In this document: one piece after another, positions 30,471-38,292 of the stretch
Layout of the letters: every line of letters begins with the position of its first letter
Position numbering within the stretch: the first letter of the stretch is position 1
Source of the DNA: Paenisporosarcina sp. FSL H8-0542
GTDB taxonomy: Bacteria; Bacillota; Bacilli; Bacillales_A; Planococcaceae
Assembly: GCF_038632915.1 (NCBI RefSeq)
Contig: NZ_CP152050.1
Span: 3,193,001 to 3,257,000 of the forward strand
Direction of reading: 5' to 3'
DNA: 64,000 nt
Program-made: the position numbers and the translations under genes
Notes under the pieces: model-generated
Seen by the model: the letters and a program-made list of their open reading frames with translations, nothing else
What the model was told of the DNA's origin: nothing
Databases searched by the model: none

Positions 30471-32822
30471 TCAAAAATTTTTGTCTTTTTCAGACTTATA
30501 ATCAGCAACAACTAACACATCTAAATGTCGGACTAAACGCAATAGCTTTTGAACTACCGATCCTTTCATGATTTCTTCCACACGTGTTCTAGCTGACTGT
30601 CCAATAATGACTTGTGTTGCTTTTCTTTCATTTAGCTTTTGAACTAATTCATACACGACTTTTCTTCGATGCGATGTTTCATATATCTCAAACTCTCCGC
30701 CAAGTCTTTCTGTTAATGACTTCACTTTATTTGACATAGATTCCTCTGATTCTGAAAGAGCAGCATGATCTTTTACATAAATTACATACCACCTGGCTTT
30801 CAATCGATAAGCAATACGGAATCCCCTTCGAATTAGCCGTTCACTGTCATTCCCTAAATTTACACAAACAAATATTATTTCCTGTTTCCGCCAAGGCCCT
30901 CTTAACGTTCGACTTCTCTCCAGAGACTCCAATCTCTCGTCAACATCATCTGCTACTTCACGTAGCGCCAATTCCCGTAACGCAATCAAGTTACCTGTTC
31001 TAAAAAAATTATTTAAGGATTGTTCAATTTTCGTTGCAGCATATATATTCCCTTGCCGCATCCGTGTTCTTAAAGCTTTAGCTGAAATATCGATTAATTC
31101 TATTTCATCTGCCATTCGAAGAATATTGTCTGGAACCGTTTCGCGAACTCGCACTCCCGTAATTTGTTCAACACTATCGTTTAAACTTTCCAAGTGTTGA
31201 ATGTTCATAGTAGAAATCACTGAAATACCTGACTTTATTATTTCTTCGACATCCATATATCTTTTTGAATACTTACTAGTAGGAATATTCGTATGGGCGA
31301 TTTCATCGACAAGAACAACCTCAGGGTTACGCTTTAAAATAGCTTCTGTATCCATTTCTTCTAAAATGACATGTTTATACTTCACTTTTTTTCTAGGAAT
31401 GAACTCAAGGGTACCAACTTGTTCCAGCGTTTCTTTTCTTCCGTGGGTTTCCAATAAGCCTATCACTACGTCAATTCCATTTCGCTTCAAGATATTTGCT
31501 TCACGAAGCATCGTGAATGTCTTACCAACTCCTGGGGCAGAGCCGATGTAAACCTTTAAGGTGCCATTTTTAATTTTATGTACCTCATTTTCAAGTTCTT
31601 TATGTGATAGTCGTCGGTATGGATCTGACGTCGGAATTTCTGATTTTTTTGCAGGTAGAATCCGTTCTCCTTCTTTTTCTGCACGATCTGCTACGATAAA
31701 TAAATCTATATTTTTTGTTTTTCGTAGTATTTTGTTCAAAATTGACCCATACATCACTTCTTCCAATCTGCTACGTTTTGTTTGCCCCACGACTATACGG
31801 GTGATTTTTTTCTTCGTAGCGTAATTGTAAATTTCATCAGCTACATCCTCATTTATAATAGGACGTTCTTCAAAAGAACCACCTATTTTTCCCACAAGTT
31901 TTTTTATCTCGCGTCTGAACGATTCTTCATTTTTGGTGAGGTTTCTTTTTGATGAACGAAAACAGACAACAAGGAGTTCTGCTCCTAGTCGCTTGGCTAT
32001 TTGTTGGCCTCGACGGATTAAGATGGACCCGTTCCAATGGTATTGAACGGATACCAAAATTTTTTCAGAGGCACCTGATGCTCCTAACATCCCTTGTTTT
32101 TCTCTATAAGAATCCAATACCTCATTTACTTCTTCTGCTACAAACCTTAATGAGAGCTCTCTAAGAACCGCAAGATTGTCACGCAAATATAATTTATCTC
32201 TTCCTTTTGATGTAACAATGGTTCTTTCAATTGTTCCATCATGTAATCGCTTTAGTATGGATTCAGGGGTCACATCAATGAGTTTTACTTCATCAGCTAA
32301 ATCTAATGTATCTTCGGGGACACAATGATCAACCTGTACGCGAACACCTAAAGTTTCTTCAGCTACTTCTCGTACACCTTGCAAATCATAAATATTGACC
32401 GTTGTAATCACACTTATTTTTTTATTGATTAATTCTAAAACATCGTCTAATCTTGTTTTATTTTTAGCTTGTGGGGAATTTCGATGTGCTAACTCATCTA
32501 CAAGAACTAATTCAGGATTTCGCGCAAGAATCGCTTCCATATCTAAATCACATTTTATTATTCCTTCATTGTTCCACTCAATCGGAGCAATATTTTCAAG
32601 CTGTCCAGTTTGTTCAACTGTTTTTGGATGGTTCGATACACTAACTAGTCCAACCACGACATCTATCCCACTCTTTTTCATTGCATTCCCTTCTAGTAAC
32701 ATATGATAGGTTTTACCTGACCCGCTCACTGCTCCTAAAATAATTTTCAAGTGACCTTTATTTACTTTCACTATTTCCTGAAGCAGTGCTTCAGGTGACT
32801 TCCTCCGAAATTGGTCTACCAT
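30471..32822 (-). CDS. Tandem KdpD sensor-module protein lacking the kinase
   Basis: 783 residues made of two consecutive KdpD N-terminal units. Copy 1: Walker A GAVSGSGKT (30-38), Walker B VLVDELAH (106-113), Usp domain about 253-379. Copy 2: Walker A GSAPGVGKT (427-435), ETHGR (458-462), LVDEIAH (504-510), Usp about 648-773. Copy 2 is closer to canonical KdpD; copy 1 has lost ETHGR. There are no transmembrane helices, no GAF domain and no histidine kinase, and kdpE is absent. Single truncated KdpD proteins are known in other bacteria, but a tandem form is unusual. I do not see the SxS...FTAxY c-di-AMP motif of S. aureus KdpD in either copy. GGAAGG precedes the ATG. Confidence 0.88.
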   Translation of the reverse strand: MVDQFRRKSPEALLQEIVKVNKGHLKIILGAVSGSGKTYHMLLEGNAMKKSGIDVVVGLVSVSNHPKTVEQTGQLENIAPIEWNNEGIIKCDLDMEAILARNPELVLVDELAHRNSPQAKNKTRLDDVLELINKKISVITTVNIYDLQGVREVAEETLGVRVQVDHCVPEDTLDLADEVKLIDVTPESILKRLHDGTIERTIVTSKGRDKLYLRDNLAVLRELSLRFVAEEVNEVLDSYREKQGMLGASGASEKILVSVQYHWNGSILIRRGQQIAKRLGAELLVVCFRSSKRNLTKNEESFRREIKKLVGKIGGSFEERPIINEDVADEIYNYATKKKITRIVVGQTKRSRLEEVMYGSILNKILRKTKNIDLFIVADRAEKEGERILPAKKSEIPTSDPYRRLSHKELENEVHKIKNGTLKVYIGSAPGVGKTFTMLREANILKRNGIDVVIGLLETHGRKETLEQVGTLEFIPRKKVKYKHVILEEMDTEAILKRNPEVVLVDEIAHTNIPTSKYSKRYMDVEEIIKSGISVISTMNIQHLESLNDSVEQITGVRVRETVPDNILRMADEIELIDISAKALRTRMRQGNIYAATKIEQSLNNFFRTGNLIALRELALREVADDVDERLESLERSRTLRGPWRKQEIIFVCVNLGNDSERLIRRGFRIAYRLKARWYVIYVKDHAALSESEESMSNKVKSLTERLGGEFEIYETSHRRKVVYELVQKLNERKATQVIIGQSARTRVEEIMKGSVVQKLLRLVRHLDVLVVADYKSEKDKNF

Positions 32823-32850
32823 GTATCAATCACCTTCCTTTTGCAAGGTA

Positions 32851-32880
32851 AAAAGAGAGAGTCATTTCACTCTCCCTTTT
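32851..32880 (-). terminator. Terminator-like hairpin between kdpC and the kdpD-like gene
   Basis: On the minus strand 12-nt arms AAAAGGGAGAGT / ACTCTCTCTTTT pair fully if one G-U is allowed, ending in five T. It sits in the 71-bp gap after kdpC and may attenuate read-through into the sensor gene. Confidence 0.55.
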
Positions 32881-32893
32881 CTCCTACTTATCG

Positions 32894-33445
32894 CTATTCA
32901 TCAAGAGCCAAATTGAGATTCAATACATTTACACGTGGTTCACCAAACACACCTAACTGACGTCCTTCCGTATGTTCCTTAATTATTGTTAATAATTCTT
33001 CTTCACTAACTCCCCTTTCAGCTGCAATTCGAGGAACCTGTATCTCAGCAGCTAATGGTGAAATATGTGGATCCAGTCCTGATCCAGAGTTGGTTAATAA
33101 ATCTGCTGGAATATCTTTCTTTTGAATATCAGGATTATTTTTTAGAAATATGTCAATATCCGATTTAGTTCGTTCAATCATATCTTCATTCGAAGGCGCA
33201 TAGTTTCCGGACCCAGAACCTGCTGCGTTATTATCTATAGAAGAAACTCTTCCAGAAAAGTACTTTGGGTCATTAAATGTTTGGCCGATTAGCTCAGATC
33301 CAACTACTTTCCCATCTTGATCCGTCAATAAGCTTCCCTCTGCTTTTGCTGGCATAATTAGTTGCGAAAAACCTGTCATCGCCAATGGGTAACCTACCCC
33401 ACATATAAAAAGTAACACGAGCGTTAATCGTAAGTTTTTTAACAT
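32894..33445 (-). CDS. kdpC: Potassium-transporting ATPase subunit C
   Basis: A 183-residue subunit that stabilises ATP binding in the KdpFABC pump. One N-terminal membrane helix (LRLTLVLLFICGVGYPLAMTG), then the periplasm-facing domain with SELIGQTFNDPKYFSGRVSS near residue 50 and SGSGLDPHISPLAAEIQVPRIA near 120, both highly conserved in KdpC. The end VNVLNLNLALDE is typical. AAAGGTG precedes the ATG. Fifth structural gene of the operon; 26 bp after kdpB. Confidence 0.95.
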   Translation of the reverse strand: MLKNLRLTLVLLFICGVGYPLAMTGFSQLIMPAKAEGSLLTDQDGKVVGSELIGQTFNDPKYFSGRVSSIDNNAAGSGSGNYAPSNEDMIERTKSDIDIFLKNNPDIQKKDIPADLLTNSGSGLDPHISPLAAEIQVPRIAAERGVSEEELLTIIKEHTEGRQLGVFGEPRVNVLNLNLALDE

Positions 33446-33471: not shown

Positions 33472-35511
33472 TTATGTTAAATTTATCAAAACTAGCATCA
33501 AGTCAATTATTTTTATACCAATAAAAGGAATCATAACTCCGCCAAACCCATAAATAAACAGGTTGCGGTTTAAAAGCTTAGTCGAGCTCATCGGAACATA
33601 TTTTACGCCCTTCATTGCTAAAGGAATCAACAAAGGAATGATGATGGCATTGAAGATCAGTGCAGACAATATCGCACTTTGCGGTGTTGCCAAATTCATA
33701 ATGTTCAGAGCAGCCATTTGAGGAATAGCTACCATGAACATCGCAGGAATGATGGCAAAGTATTTTGCTACATCGTTTGCAATACTGAAGGTTGTCAATG
33801 CTCCCCTTGTCATTAACAACTGCTTTCCGATTCCCACTACTTCAATGATTTTTGTTGGATCCGAGTCTAAATCAACCATATTAGCAGCTTCTTTAGCAGC
33901 AGTTGTTCCACTATTCATGGCAAGACCAACATCTGCTTGAGCAAGAGCTGGGGCATCGTTGGTTCCATCACCTGTCATCGCAACAAGTTTACCCTCAGAT
34001 TGCTCTTTTTTTATAACAGCAATTTTATCTTCTGGTTTTGCCTCTGCAATAAAATCATCAACCCCGGCTTCGCGGGCAATAGTTGCAGCTGTTAAAGGAT
34101 TATCGCCAGTACACATCACCGTTTTTATTCCCATTTTTCTTAGTTCATCAAAACGCTCTTTCATTCCTGGTTTAACTGTATCTTTTAAATAAATTAATCC
34201 TAAAATTCGGTTACCATCTGCTACGGCAAGCGGCGTACCACCTTCCATCGCAATTTCCTTCGTTTTCTCATCCAAATCACTTGGAACTGTTCCACCTTTT
34301 TTCATTACGTAATCTTTGATGGCATTGACTGCACCTTTACGGACTTGACGCCCGTTTGCAAAGTTCGTTCCACTCATTCTCGTCTCCGCTTTAAACTCTA
34401 CCCCCTCAGATCCGGCTACATTTAGTTCTGATACAGAAACACCCATTTTTCTTGCTAACTCAACGACTGATCGGCCTTCTGGCGTCTCGTCATAGAGTGA
34501 AGTATGAAGAGCCACTTTATTTAATTCTTTTTGATTTACATTTTCTACTGGAATAAACGTTGCAGCCATTCGGTTACCAAATGTAATTGTTCCTGTTTTA
34601 TCAAGGATGATTGTGTTAATGTCACCAGCAGCTTCTACTGCTTTACCTGACATGGCAATCACGTTAAACTGTGTAACCCGATCCATTCCTGCAATACCAA
34701 TAGCTGAAAGAAGGCCCCCAATGGTTGTTGGAATTAAACAAACTAGCAAGGCAATTAGTGTTGAGATCGGAATGGTCGCATCCACATAAGATGCAATGGG
34801 TAATAATGTTGTACAAACAATTAGAAAGATTAACGTTAAACTAACGAGCAATGTATTCAGTGCAATTTCATTCGGTGTTTTTTGACGTTTCGCCCCTTCA
34901 ACCAAACTAATCATTCGATCAAGGAAAGATTCACCTGGATCTGTCGTTATACGAATTTTGATGCTATCACTTATTACTCGTGTACCACCAGTTACCGAGC
35001 AGAAGTCACCGCCTGATTCTTTAATGACAGGTGCAGATTCACCAGTAATTGCTGACTCGTCAACAGAAGCAACACCTTCAATAATTTCTCCATCACTCGG
35101 GATCAATTCGTTCGCTTCAACAACAACGATGTCCCCTTTTCTTAAGTCAGTTGAGCTGACCATTTTAAAGCTTCCATCTTTTTGGAGCAGCTTTGCTTTT
35201 GTATCTTGTTTTGTTTTTTTCAAGCTGTCCGCTTGCGCTTTTCCTCTTCCTTCAGCCAAAGCTTCTGCGAAGTTGGCAAATAGAATAGTAACCAATAGGA
35301 TAAAGCTGACGATTCCGTTGTAAAAGGCATTGGACTCTCCGCCAAACATCGTTGGAAAAATTGTTAGAAATAACGTAACAATAAATCCTATTTCAACGAC
35401 GAACATGACTGGATTTTTCGCCATAAGTCGTGGATCAAGTTTTTTAAATGAATCAATTATTGCCCGCTTGACAATATCATTAGTCAGCGTAACTTTACGC
35501 GTTGTGTTCAT
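33472..35511 (-). CDS. kdpB: Potassium-transporting ATPase subunit B
   Basis: A 679-residue P-type ATPase subunit that hydrolyses ATP for K+ uptake. Phosphorylation motif DKTGT (near residue 304), actuator TGES, and hinge [18 protein letters not shown] near 520 are all intact. About seven membrane helices. AAGGAG precedes the ATG at 35511. Between kdpA and kdpC as usual. Confidence 0.97.
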
Positions 35512-35543: not shown

Positions 35544-37217
35544 TTATCGAATAGTTAACCATTCAGCAATCGGCCCTAACGCAAGTACAGGGAAAAATGT
35601 AAGCGCACCTACGATGACAACTGTTGCCAGTAAGATGACCAGGAATGTGCTGTTGTCTGTTTTAAAAGTACCCATTGTTTCGGGAACCGGTTTTTTGGCT
35701 AGTAATGAACCAGCTACTGCAATCATCGCAATCATTGAGAAGTAACGGCCAAATAACATAACCAAACCAGTTGAGATATTCCAAAACGGCGTGTTATCTC
35801 CTAACCCCTCAAATCCAGAACCATTGTTTGCTGCCGAAGATGTAAACTCATAAACAACCTGAGAAATCCCGTGATATCCTGGATTCGAAATCGCTGATGA
35901 GCCCATCTCAGTAGCCAATGCGATTGCTGTGGGAACAAGAATAATTAACGGATGAATCAATATGGTAATCGCAATCAATTTCATTTCTTTTGCTTCGATT
36001 TTTCTTCCTAAAAACTCGGGTGTACGACCTACCATCAATCCTGCCAGGAATACGGCAAGAATAGAGTACATCATGATATTGATGAAGCCTACTCCATCTC
36101 CACCGAATACACTGTTGAACATCATTAACACTAATGGAACGAAGCCTCCTAGGGGTGTCAATGTATCGTGCATGTTATTAACTGTTCCTGTCGTCGCTGC
36201 GGTTGTAACTGTGGTAAACAAGGCACTTTGAGCAATTCCAAAACGAACCTCTTTGCCTTCCATACTTCCATTTTCTTGAGAAAGACCAATTTTCTCCAGT
36301 TCCGGATTTCCATTTGCTTCACTAAAATAAGTAAGTGATAAAAAGGCGAGGAACATGAGTCCCATGGTTGAAAATAGGATGACCCCTTGTTTACGGCTTT
36401 TAGCCATTGCTCCGAATGCAAATGGCAAAGCAGTTGGAATCAAGAACATGGCCAGAATCTCTATGACATTTGAAAATGGTGTTGGATTTTCAAAAGGATG
36501 AGCCGAGTTAACACCAAAGAATCCTCCACCGTTTGTACCTAAGTGTTTAATTGATTCCAGCGCTGCAACAGGTCCACGCGCAATTTGCTGCATCGCACCT
36601 TCAACTGTTGTCGCGGATATTGTGGCACCCATCGTTTGCGGAACACCCTGACCAACTAGAAGCAGTCCTACAACTATGGATAACGGGATTAAGATACGTG
36701 TATTTGCCCGTACTAGGTCAACATAAAAGTTCCCGACACTTTTTTGACCAGTGATTCCACGCATGAATGCCAAACATAAGGCAAGACCCGTTGCCGGTGT
36801 TGTAAACATCAAAAATATAATGACGGTCATTTGGGAGAAGTAAGATAACCCTGATTCCCCGCTATAATGCTGTAAGTTCGTATTCGTCAAGAAGCTAACT
36901 ACTGTATTGAAGGCTAAGAGAGGATCCATTGCAGCAATCCCACTTGGATTGGCCGGTAATATCCCTTGCAAACGAATAATGGTGTAACAAGTGGCAAACA
37001 TGACGATGTTACTAATCAATAAAGCTTTTGCATATTGTTTCCAGTTCATGCTCATTATCGAGATACCCGACATCTTATAAATGGCTTTTTCTACGCCACC
37101 AAAAACTTTATCAAGCTTTGTTTCTTCCAAAGAAAATACTTTGGCAATATAGCGCCCCATCGGAATTGCCAGTAGCACAACCAGTAGTAATACAATTCCT
37201 ATTTGTAAAAAATCCAT
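35544..37217 (-). CDS. kdpA: Potassium-transporting ATPase subunit A
   Basis: A 557-residue membrane subunit that selects K+, with about ten helices. The selectivity-filter stretches are visible: TNTNLQHYSGE, LGTNGGGFFGVNSAHPFENP, TTGTVNNMHDTLTPLGG and TSSAANNGSGFEGL. The ATG at 37217 has GGAGG 8 bp upstream; the ORF start at 37232 would put that site inside the gene. Confidence 0.97.
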   Translation of the reverse strand: MDFLQIGIVLLLVVLLAIPMGRYIAKVFSLEETKLDKVFGGVEKAIYKMSGISIMSMNWKQYAKALLISNIVMFATCYTIIRLQGILPANPSGIAAMDPLLAFNTVVSFLTNTNLQHYSGESGLSYFSQMTVIIFLMFTTPATGLALCLAFMRGITGQKSVGNFYVDLVRANTRILIPLSIVVGLLLVGQGVPQTMGATISATTVEGAMQQIARGPVAALESIKHLGTNGGGFFGVNSAHPFENPTPFSNVIEILAMFLIPTALPFAFGAMAKSRKQGVILFSTMGLMFLAFLSLTYFSEANGNPELEKIGLSQENGSMEGKEVRFGIAQSALFTTVTTAATTGTVNNMHDTLTPLGGFVPLVLMMFNSVFGGDGVGFINIMMYSILAVFLAGLMVGRTPEFLGRKIEAKEMKLIAITILIHPLIILVPTAIALATEMGSSAISNPGYHGISQVVYEFTSSAANNGSGFEGLGDNTPFWNISTGLVMLFGRYFSMIAMIAVAGSLLAKKPVPETMGTFKTDNSTFLVILLATVVIVGALTFFPVLALGPIAEWLTIR

Positions 37218-37243
37218 TTTTGTTTCCTCCATCTATTAAAAAA

Positions 37244-37321
37244 TTAATACTTCTCAGGATGAATTAAGGCATCGATTAGGTAAACTGTTAGTCCTCCGAC
37301 TAGAATCAATAAGAAAATCAT
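37244..37321 (-). CDS. kdpF: Potassium-transporting ATPase subunit F
   Basis: A 25-residue single-helix peptide, MIFLLILVGGLTVYLIDALI then HPEKY. This is the classic KdpF signature (helix plus L-x-x-P-E at the end), a lipid-like stabiliser of the complex. Too short for standard gene finders. Its ATG overlaps the stop of the preceding 34-codon gene by one base (TAATG), so the two are translationally coupled. kdpA follows 26 bp later. Confidence 0.9.
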   Translation of the reverse strand: MIFLLILVGGLTVYLIDALIHPEKY

Positions 37322-37425
37322 TACTTTCCGCTTCCTTGTTCATCTACAACTTTGTCGCAAAAATGAATGAACCCCAAAAATACTGCAAAAGATGAAATAA
37401 TTAATGCAATTGAAACGATATCCAT
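37321..37425 (-). CDS. 34-residue membrane peptide upstream of kdpF
   Basis: A 34-codon frame from ATG 37425 with AGAGAGGGAG upstream. It has one hydrophobic helix (MDIVSIALIISSFAVFLGF) followed by IHFCDKVVDEQGSGK. The F-x-x-C-D-K end is reminiscent of small unnamed peptides found beside kdpF in other genomes, as far as I recall. Its stop overlaps the kdpF start, so it is co-translated with the pump. Role unknown; an extra small subunit of the Kdp complex is an attractive guess. Confidence 0.7.
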   Translation of the reverse strand: MDIVSIALIISSFAVFLGFIHFCDKVVDEQGSGK

Positions 37426-37868: not shown

Positions 37869-37916
37869 AAAAAAAGACTCCCGAAATCAAGGTGGTCTTG
37901 TGACCTCCTCCGCTTT
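37869..37916 (-). terminator. Expression platform of the c-di-AMP riboswitch (probable terminator)
   Basis: Right after the aptamer, the minus strand has a GGAGGaGGTC / GACCaCCTT-like hairpin and then seven consecutive T at 37875-37869. The stem does not abut the T-run perfectly, so the exact fold is uncertain. Confidence 0.5.
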
Positions 37917-38041
37917 AGCCGACGAAGTTAGCTGACGGGTAGGATGGCGAAAGAGCATCTCATCCTTTCTACAGACAAATGTAGAATTAACCCCAAAAAA
38001 TTGGTTCCTCCGTTCCTGATTGCTCAGGACTAAGCCGATAT
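37917..38041 (-). ncRNA. c-di-AMP (ydaO/yuaA) riboswitch controlling kdp
   Basis: Read leftward, the leader shows the conserved blocks of the ydaO/yuaA class: GGCTTAGTCCTGAGC then GGAACGGAGGAACCAA, TTTGGGGTTAAT, and finally CCTACCCGTCAGCTAAC followed by TTCGTCGGC. Order and spacing fit the c-di-AMP aptamer. A T-run follows, so ligand binding would be expected to end transcription before kdp. High c-di-AMP signals ample K+, which suits a K+ pump. The coding region begins about 490 bp downstream, so the leader is long. Confidence 0.87.
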
Positions 38042-38292
38042 GTTATTTTCTGTTAATAAAATGTATATTACTCTTGACCCTTTTTTATGTATACAGGTAA
38101 TTAGAACTATTTTAGACTTTTGAATGTTCAATATCAATCGGAAAATTCAAAGTTCCTATTATTCAGGAATTTTTACGTTTGTATTTTAACTGTGTGACTA
38201 TAAAAATAAATTCATATTGACAACTTTAACAACACCTCAGTAAGATAAGTCGTTAAGAAGATGTAAAATATAGTCCACCGGAGGAAATACAG

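Follow-up and report, generated by a model that had tools for sequence, protein, structure and literature searches.

The window, a stretch of 64,000 nucleotides from the genome of Paenisporosarcina sp. FSL H8-0542, carries a kdp operon on its minus strand whose last gene encodes two successive KdpD/Usp units in a single chain. Proteins of this kind are referred to below as type A tandems, and a second kind found in other families as type B. The features of the locus are given here in the order of transcription, with the basis of each assignment in brackets.

37903..38046, minus strand: c-di-AMP riboswitch (RF00379), the operon leader (RNA family match, 76.4 bits)
37244..37321, minus strand: probable kdpF, a 25-aa hydrophobic ORF directly before kdpA (sequence)
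35544..37232, minus strand: kdpA (named from sequence and operon)
33472..35511, minus strand: kdpB, with the TGES serine at residue 159, codon 35035-35037 (named from ORF sequence and operon)
32894..33445, minus strand: kdpC (Pfam and NCBIfam)
32850..32881, minus strand: 13-bp hairpin whose 3' arm is U-rich, in the gap separating kdpC from the tandem gene (folding)
30471..32822, minus strand: tandem KdpD/Usp-KdpD/Usp protein, 783 aa (ORF, Pfam and NCBIfam matches)
32118..32759, minus strand: KdpD domain of module 1, about residues 22-235, with an intact ATP site but neither ETHGR nor QHLES (alignments)
32709..32735, minus strand: module 1 Walker A, residues 30-38, GAVSGSGKT (sequence)
32484..32507, minus strand: module 1 Walker B, residues 106-113, VLVDELAH, E110 present in the window (sequence)
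31689..32069, minus strand: module 1 Usp domain, about residues 252-378, the slightly more conserved Usp of type A (Pfam, conservation)
32028..32045, minus strand: QYHWNG loop of Usp 1, residues 260-265 (alignment)
30942..31568, minus strand: KdpD domain of module 2, residues 419-627, carrying the residues of the serine kinase (Pfam, alignment)
31518..31544, minus strand: module 2 Walker A, residues 427-435, GSAPGVGKT (sequence)
31437..31451, minus strand: module 2 ETHGR, residues 458-462 (sequence)
31293..31313, minus strand: module 2 Walker B, residues 504-510, LVDEIAH, with D506 and E507 (sequence)
30507..30878, minus strand: module 2 Usp domain, residues 649-772, pocket loops variable across type A (Pfam, conservation)

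The gap between kdpC and the tandem gene is 71 nt long and folds with a z-score of -5.05. A pattern scan at 32850-32881 found a terminator-like site on the plus strand only. The hairpin is possibly an attenuator, through which the regulator may be made in smaller amounts than the pump. A foldable gap at this place was also seen in several type A loci, judged by folding with no comparison to shuffled sequence. In the leader, a 34-aa hydrophobic ORF (window 37321-37425) overlaps the start of the 25-aa kdpF-like ORF.

Ser159 of the window's KdpB is the equivalent of E. coli S162. The TGES motif that contains it was present in the KdpB of 57 of the 59 sources with a KdpB ORF above 200 bits; at L137 and L143 kdpB was in pieces and without TGES, and L142 and L160, with no KdpB ORF above 200 bits, stand outside the count. 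As TGES is common to P-type ATPases, its presence in KdpB is a necessary condition only and does not discriminate. Short or split kdpA or kdpB ORFs were observed in L143, L137, L125 and L126, some of them perhaps broken genes.

Domain content and genomic setting of the tandem protein

A Pfam scan of the 783-aa protein gave two PF02702 domains (514.9 bits, best stretch 419-627) and two Usp domains (62.3 bits). The NCBIfam model NF038185, named KdpD_non_kinase, also matched twice, the whole protein scoring 800.8 bits against a cut-off of 550 and the single copies 473 and 340 bits, each below that cut-off. The copies are 38% identical (147/384). Neither DUF4118 nor a histidine kinase domain was found in the protein by the Pfam scan, and a simple hydropathy scan gave no membrane helix (best 19-residue mean of 1.16, against 2.68 for KdpA as a control). 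These results bear out a sequence-only reading of this DNA, which had described two KdpD ATPase-plus-Usp units devoid of membrane helices, had placed both Walker A and both Walker B motifs where we find them, and had noted that ETHGR is missing from copy 1 and kept in copy 2.

A frameshift dividing two genes, or an assembly artefact, was rejected as the source of the fusion: the same 783-aa ORF is present in G075, a genome of the same species (apparently Paenisporosarcina sp. HGH0030), and 58 further genomes match over the whole length. The idea that the second unit is not KdpD-like was likewise discarded, copy 2 being the more canonical unit. An AlphaFold prediction of the tandem from two alignment rows (the window and L034) had a pLDDT of 37.

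In the window's genome, a profile search found PF02702 over its cut-off in the two tandem copies only, with one further match of 19.6 bits below the cut-off, and found no match to DUF4118. No clear KdpE was detected in the genome either: the best match to E. coli KdpE scored 141 bits and the best identity was 38%, compared with 181-217 bits and 44-49% identity for control regulators adjoining kdpD in four genomes. A KdpD histidine kinase and a KdpE partner, described earlier as missing, were thus not found anywhere in the genome, and a hidden phosphorelay elsewhere in it was rejected on the same searches. Two diadenylate cyclase domain matches lay over the cut-off in this genome (154.7 and 33.3 bits), and a riboswitch was also found outside the window.

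Distribution, locus context and origin of the tandems

Among 261 genomes of the window's own family (a search at order level covered the same 261), the tandem was confined to the two genomes of the window's species. The other PF02702 matches over the cut-off in this family lay in ORFs of 877-911 aa, with one exception of 388 aa. Of the 398 genomes in the class sample, 60 by hand count matched along essentially all 783 residues, three of them with one stop inside the matched stretch. The 58 that remain after the window's genome and G075 showed whole-length identities of 47-72%. The tandem is thus neither unique to this genome nor as rare as the sequence-only reading had implied, and regulators of this sort may be common among the proteins that owe their annotation to a KdpD domain. 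Seven family codes are represented among the type A genomes.

The phylum sample, in part the same genomes as the class sample, added a type A tandem from outside the class (G652, locus L145), 68% identical to the window's, and a much more divergent tandem in G930, with 41% identity; a scan of viral contigs found no relative. Compared with the G652 operon, the window's KdpA, KdpB and KdpC scored 988, 1185 and 272 bits; compared with that of G078, from the own family, they scored 730, 1008 and 198 bits. The higher scores to the more distant genome point to a likely horizontal transfer of the operon.

Type B was sampled at 20 loci in 19 genomes, picked among the rows with two hits in the class and phylum searches. 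Seventeen of these loci were fused and three consisted of two adjacent genes, which in L127 are separated by a stop and 42 bases and in L137 and L138 overlap in different frames. Three genomes (G491, G515 and G484) were observed to carry both kinds, with type A loci L159-L161 accompanied by type B loci L134, L131 and L135.

Phylogenetic analysis of 127 units placed the first and second copies of type A, and likewise those of type B, in four supported groups (SH-aLRT 99-100, quick method), the first and second unfused genes falling with the corresponding copies of type B. Relative to the free tree, a topology with two separate duplications lost 4.5 log-likelihood units, and topologies with a single shared duplication lost 46-49, which is 42-45 below the two-duplication tree. 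A single shared duplication was nevertheless not rejected (p-AU 0.12 and 0.07); when only the first copies of the two types were held as one clade, in an earlier test, p-AU was 0.44. Holding the two type A copies together gave a likelihood above that of the free search (p-AU 0.82). From these comparisons, type A and type B tandems probably arose independently, and the unfused adjacent pairs suggest that, in type B, the two copies can work as a pair.

At 21 of 25 type A loci, the window included, the tandem gene lies less than 200 bases after kdpC on the same strand; the exceptions are L144, with a second kdpB in between, and L159-L161. A same-strand riboswitch was found upstream of kdpA at 14 of the 25, a count in which the kdpA start of L144 lies outside the fetched stretch and the riboswitch of L143 lies elsewhere in the locus. 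DUF4118 was over the cut-off in 11 of the 25 type A genomes, comprising 2 of the 14 with the riboswitch (G504, and G364 with a borderline 29.8 bits) and 9 of the 11 without it; G303 and G505 had matches under the cut-off. In some type A genomes the DUF4118 match was on another contig or beside a type B operon. Tandems therefore do not always occur with a riboswitch and without a kinase. Riboswitch and KdpDE are mutually exclusive according to Wang et al. (PMC6488665), and among the type A loci a riboswitch with no DUF4118 over the cut-off was found in 12 of 25 and DUF4118 with no upstream riboswitch in 9 of 25. In type B, 17 of 19 genomes had a DUF4118 protein in an ORF of 510-662 aa. Two same-strand c-di-AMP riboswitches before kdp were seen in L145 (about 1.35 kb apart), L151, L153, L155, L158 and L176, and a divergent pair in L154 and L156.

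Kinase-site residues and constraint in the two modules

Phosphorylation of KdpB by the KdpD domain, acting as an atypical serine kinase, was reported by Silberberg 2024 (PMC11018627). The E. coli KdpD residues named for this reaction are Walker A, D109, E110, W39 and R190, and E110A, the one E110 change tested in E. coli, abolished KdpB phosphorylation. We counted the corresponding residues in 42 type A genomes, namely 41 of the 60 from the class sample and G652. Copy 2 had Walker A, D506/E507, an aromatic residue at 436 and R587 in all 42. The description of the protein as having no kinase is accordingly to be revised, since the KdpD domain is itself a Walker-type kinase for KdpB and copy 2 has the residues needed.

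Copy 1 kept G30, G36, K37, T38, Y39, D109 and R192 in 42/42. Its E110, however, was retained in only five genomes, the window's among them, and was replaced in 37, by Gly (29), Asp (5), Gln (1), His (1) or Asn (1); counted by 90% clusters, it was kept in 3 of 29. The nucleotide site as such was common to both copies in all 42 genomes, with Walker A of the form G-x5-GKT and an adenine-holding pair (W39/R190 in E. coli) of Tyr or Phe plus Arg, which in the window are Y39/R192 and F436/R587. In the type A alignment of 25 sequences, window included, ETHxR and QHxES were present in all copies 2 and in none of the copies 1, the second copy reading exactly ETHGR in 20 of 25. The asymmetry proposed earlier for the two copies was thus upheld, by the loss of ETHGR and QHLES from copy 1 and by the replacement of E110 in most relatives. 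Over the 25 sequences, copy 1 had 44 invariant columns out of 243 in its KdpD domain and 24 out of 138 in its Usp domain, and D92, Y145 and Q274 were invariant residues specific to it (25/25).

Both type B copies retained the Asp-Glu of Walker B (17/17 each), and tandems therefore need not consist of a kinase and a pseudokinase. In the divergent tandem at L162, Lys37 of copy 1 was replaced by Asn, Arg190 by Gln and E110 by Asp, and copy 2 was intact.

Conservation was compared between the modules over 406 genome pairs, not independent of one another, from 29 type A representatives. The KdpD domain of module 1 was the less conserved in 403 of the 406 (mean identity 0.56, against 0.74 for module 2). 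The Usp domains showed the opposite order, with Usp 1 above Usp 2 in 294 of 406 pairs, although the difference in mean identity was small (0.555 and 0.515). The loop at 257-274 of Usp 1 had a mean entropy of 0.53 bits, against 0.83 in Usp 2, and within it the QYxxNG motif was close to fixed (Q260 in 41/42, Y261 and G265 in 42/42, N264 with an entropy of 0.2 bits); the matching positions of Usp 2 vary strongly across type A. This crossed constraint was not seen in type B, in which KdpD 1 fell below KdpD 2 in 142 of 153 pairs and Usp 1 exceeded Usp 2 in only 11 of 153, so the order of the units along the chain does not by itself impose the crossing. The Usp 2 loop of type B had a mean identity of 92%. 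Together with the Usp 1 loop of type A, this suggests that in each pair one Usp pocket loop is the more tightly constrained, and that it is not the same one in the two types.

Neither Usp domain of the window fits the motif (A/G/C)xSxSxxN(Y/F) given for c-di-AMP in S. aureus (PMC8214093). With the motif positions placed by eye via E. coli KdpD in an alignment without the S. aureus sequence, it was met by 0 of 106 units of types A, B and X, unfused pairs and singles, and by 10 of 21 aligned full-length KdpDs. Single-unit sequences from D. radiodurans, Picosynechococcus and Niallia taxi were used for comparison, and the short KdpDs of the first two also lacked the motif. A short KdpD from another Deinococcus (DgKdpD of D. 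geothermalis) has been reported to be stimulated by c-di-AMP (PMC11018627), so absence of the motif does not exclude this ligand; for the S. elongatus KdpD, c-di-AMP binding was suggested by DRaCALA (PMC5897029). For the ATP-binding Usp motif G-x2-G-x9-G-(S/T), G346, G359 and S360 of module 1 and G741, G754 and S755 of module 2 were present and the second Gly was absent.

Relation to known systems and proposed function

The closest described system is DgKdpD (PMC11018627), a short KdpD/Usp serine kinase whose substrate in that study was E. coli K-12 KdpFABC and which shares with the window's protein the KdpD and Usp domains, the lack of a membrane and histidine kinase half, and the Walker A/B set of copy 2. 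Short KdpDs are reported there to accompany mostly an absence of KdpE, as is the case here. In a comparison by description rather than by sequence, the window's protein differs from DgKdpD in having two fused units, one of them mostly without the catalytic Glu. The NF038185 model likewise describes one unit of 373 residues, where the 783-aa protein has two. The kdp operon of B. thuringiensis (PMC6488665) has the same gene order, a riboswitch and no KdpE, but a single truncated KdpD of 365 aa. Full-length KdpD differs further, through its DUF4118 region, its histidine kinase half and its KdpE partner, all lacking in the window. Type B probably reflects a system like the split KdpD of Alicyclobacillus acidocaldarius, known here from the title of Schleussinger 2006, given the DUF4118 ORFs in most type B genomes; the window's genome is without the DUF4118 half. 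No description of two KdpD units in one protein was found among the titles and abstract openings listed, and the phrases "duplicated KdpD" and "tandem KdpD" had 0 occurrences in one set of the papers listed. An earlier mention is possible, as Schleussinger 2006 and the supplements of PMC11018627, which classify 5495 species, lay outside the search.

We consider it rather probable, from the residues kept in each copy, that the tandem protein is a soluble serine kinase directed at KdpB, in which module 2 would be the kinase and module 1 a nucleotide-sensing, pseudokinase-like regulator. Module 2, with ATP on its Walker motifs, would phosphorylate the TGES serine (Ser159) and so turn the pump off under ample K+. 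Module 1 would bind ATP but in most relatives probably not transfer phosphate; its conserved Usp pocket would read a cytosolic nucleotide signal and gate module 2, and the module may be a built-in partner replacing a second subunit. The riboswitch would then set synthesis of the pump and the tandem protein its activity. The sequence itself shows the order of the domains, the conserved residues, the crossed constraint and the operon with its riboswitch, and searches of the genome found no KdpD histidine kinase or KdpE; that this protein binds ATP and acts as a kinase, that module 1 gates module 2, and what ligand it reads are inferred. More tentatively, the chain may represent a bacterial pseudokinase-kinase pair, in which a P-loop kinase module has a twin that kept its ATP-site residues and a dedicated nucleotide pocket (QYxxNG) but in most relatives lost the catalytic glutamate; the twin would then act as the allosteric sensor that controls phosphorylation of a P-type ATPase, possibly for a ligand other than c-di-AMP. 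The direct action on the pump envisaged by the sequence-only reading survives in this narrower form, as that of a probable post-translational brake, with the kinase activity argued from relatives. KdpD was reported as a Kdp-inhibiting serine kinase in 2024, and the control of its activity was called open there (PMC11018627). A fusion in which sensing and catalysis are seemingly parted would offer a soluble, mutable system for signalling from Usp to kinase, and would let one ask whether KdpD works as an asymmetric pair.

For the window's own copy 1, the term pseudokinase-like refers to the lost ETHGR and QHLES motifs and to its relatives. As this copy keeps E110 it may not be dead, and the Asp found in five relatives may differ in effect from E110A. 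Both modules might be active serine kinases, copy 2 acting on KdpB and copy 1 on some other protein, e.g., another K+ transporter; the E110 of the window and four other genomes and the copy-specific D92, Y145 and Q274, which could serve another target, are consistent with this, but 37 of 42 genomes have replaced E110 and yet preserved the ATP-site residues, which makes it unlikely. We judge it similarly improbable that copy 1 is a structural partner only, a scaffold or dimer mimic stabilizing copy 2 in which sensing, if any, is unimportant. An ATP site retained mostly without its catalytic Glu would suit such a role, as would the adjacent unfused pairs at 3 of 20 type B loci that group with copy 1 and copy 2, but a Usp 1 loop near-invariant at four places exceeds what is expected of a scaffold.

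The lower conservation of the copy 1 KdpD domain (56% against 74% mean identity) would also fit a decaying duplicate of little function. Against the invariant columns of both its domains, copy-1-specific residues included, and its maintenance across seven family codes, we regard decay as very improbable. Hardly credible is an action on kdp transcription as a remnant phosphorelay sensor; this is the classical role of KdpD, but searches of the genome found neither a further KdpD nor DUF4118, and KdpE was not clearly present. In B. thuringiensis, moreover, deletion of the single truncated kdpD was reported to leave kdp transcription unchanged (PMC6488665). Compared with a purely transcriptional role, the post-translational one that we favor is also made more likely by the occurrence of the tandem in both riboswitch and DUF4118 settings.
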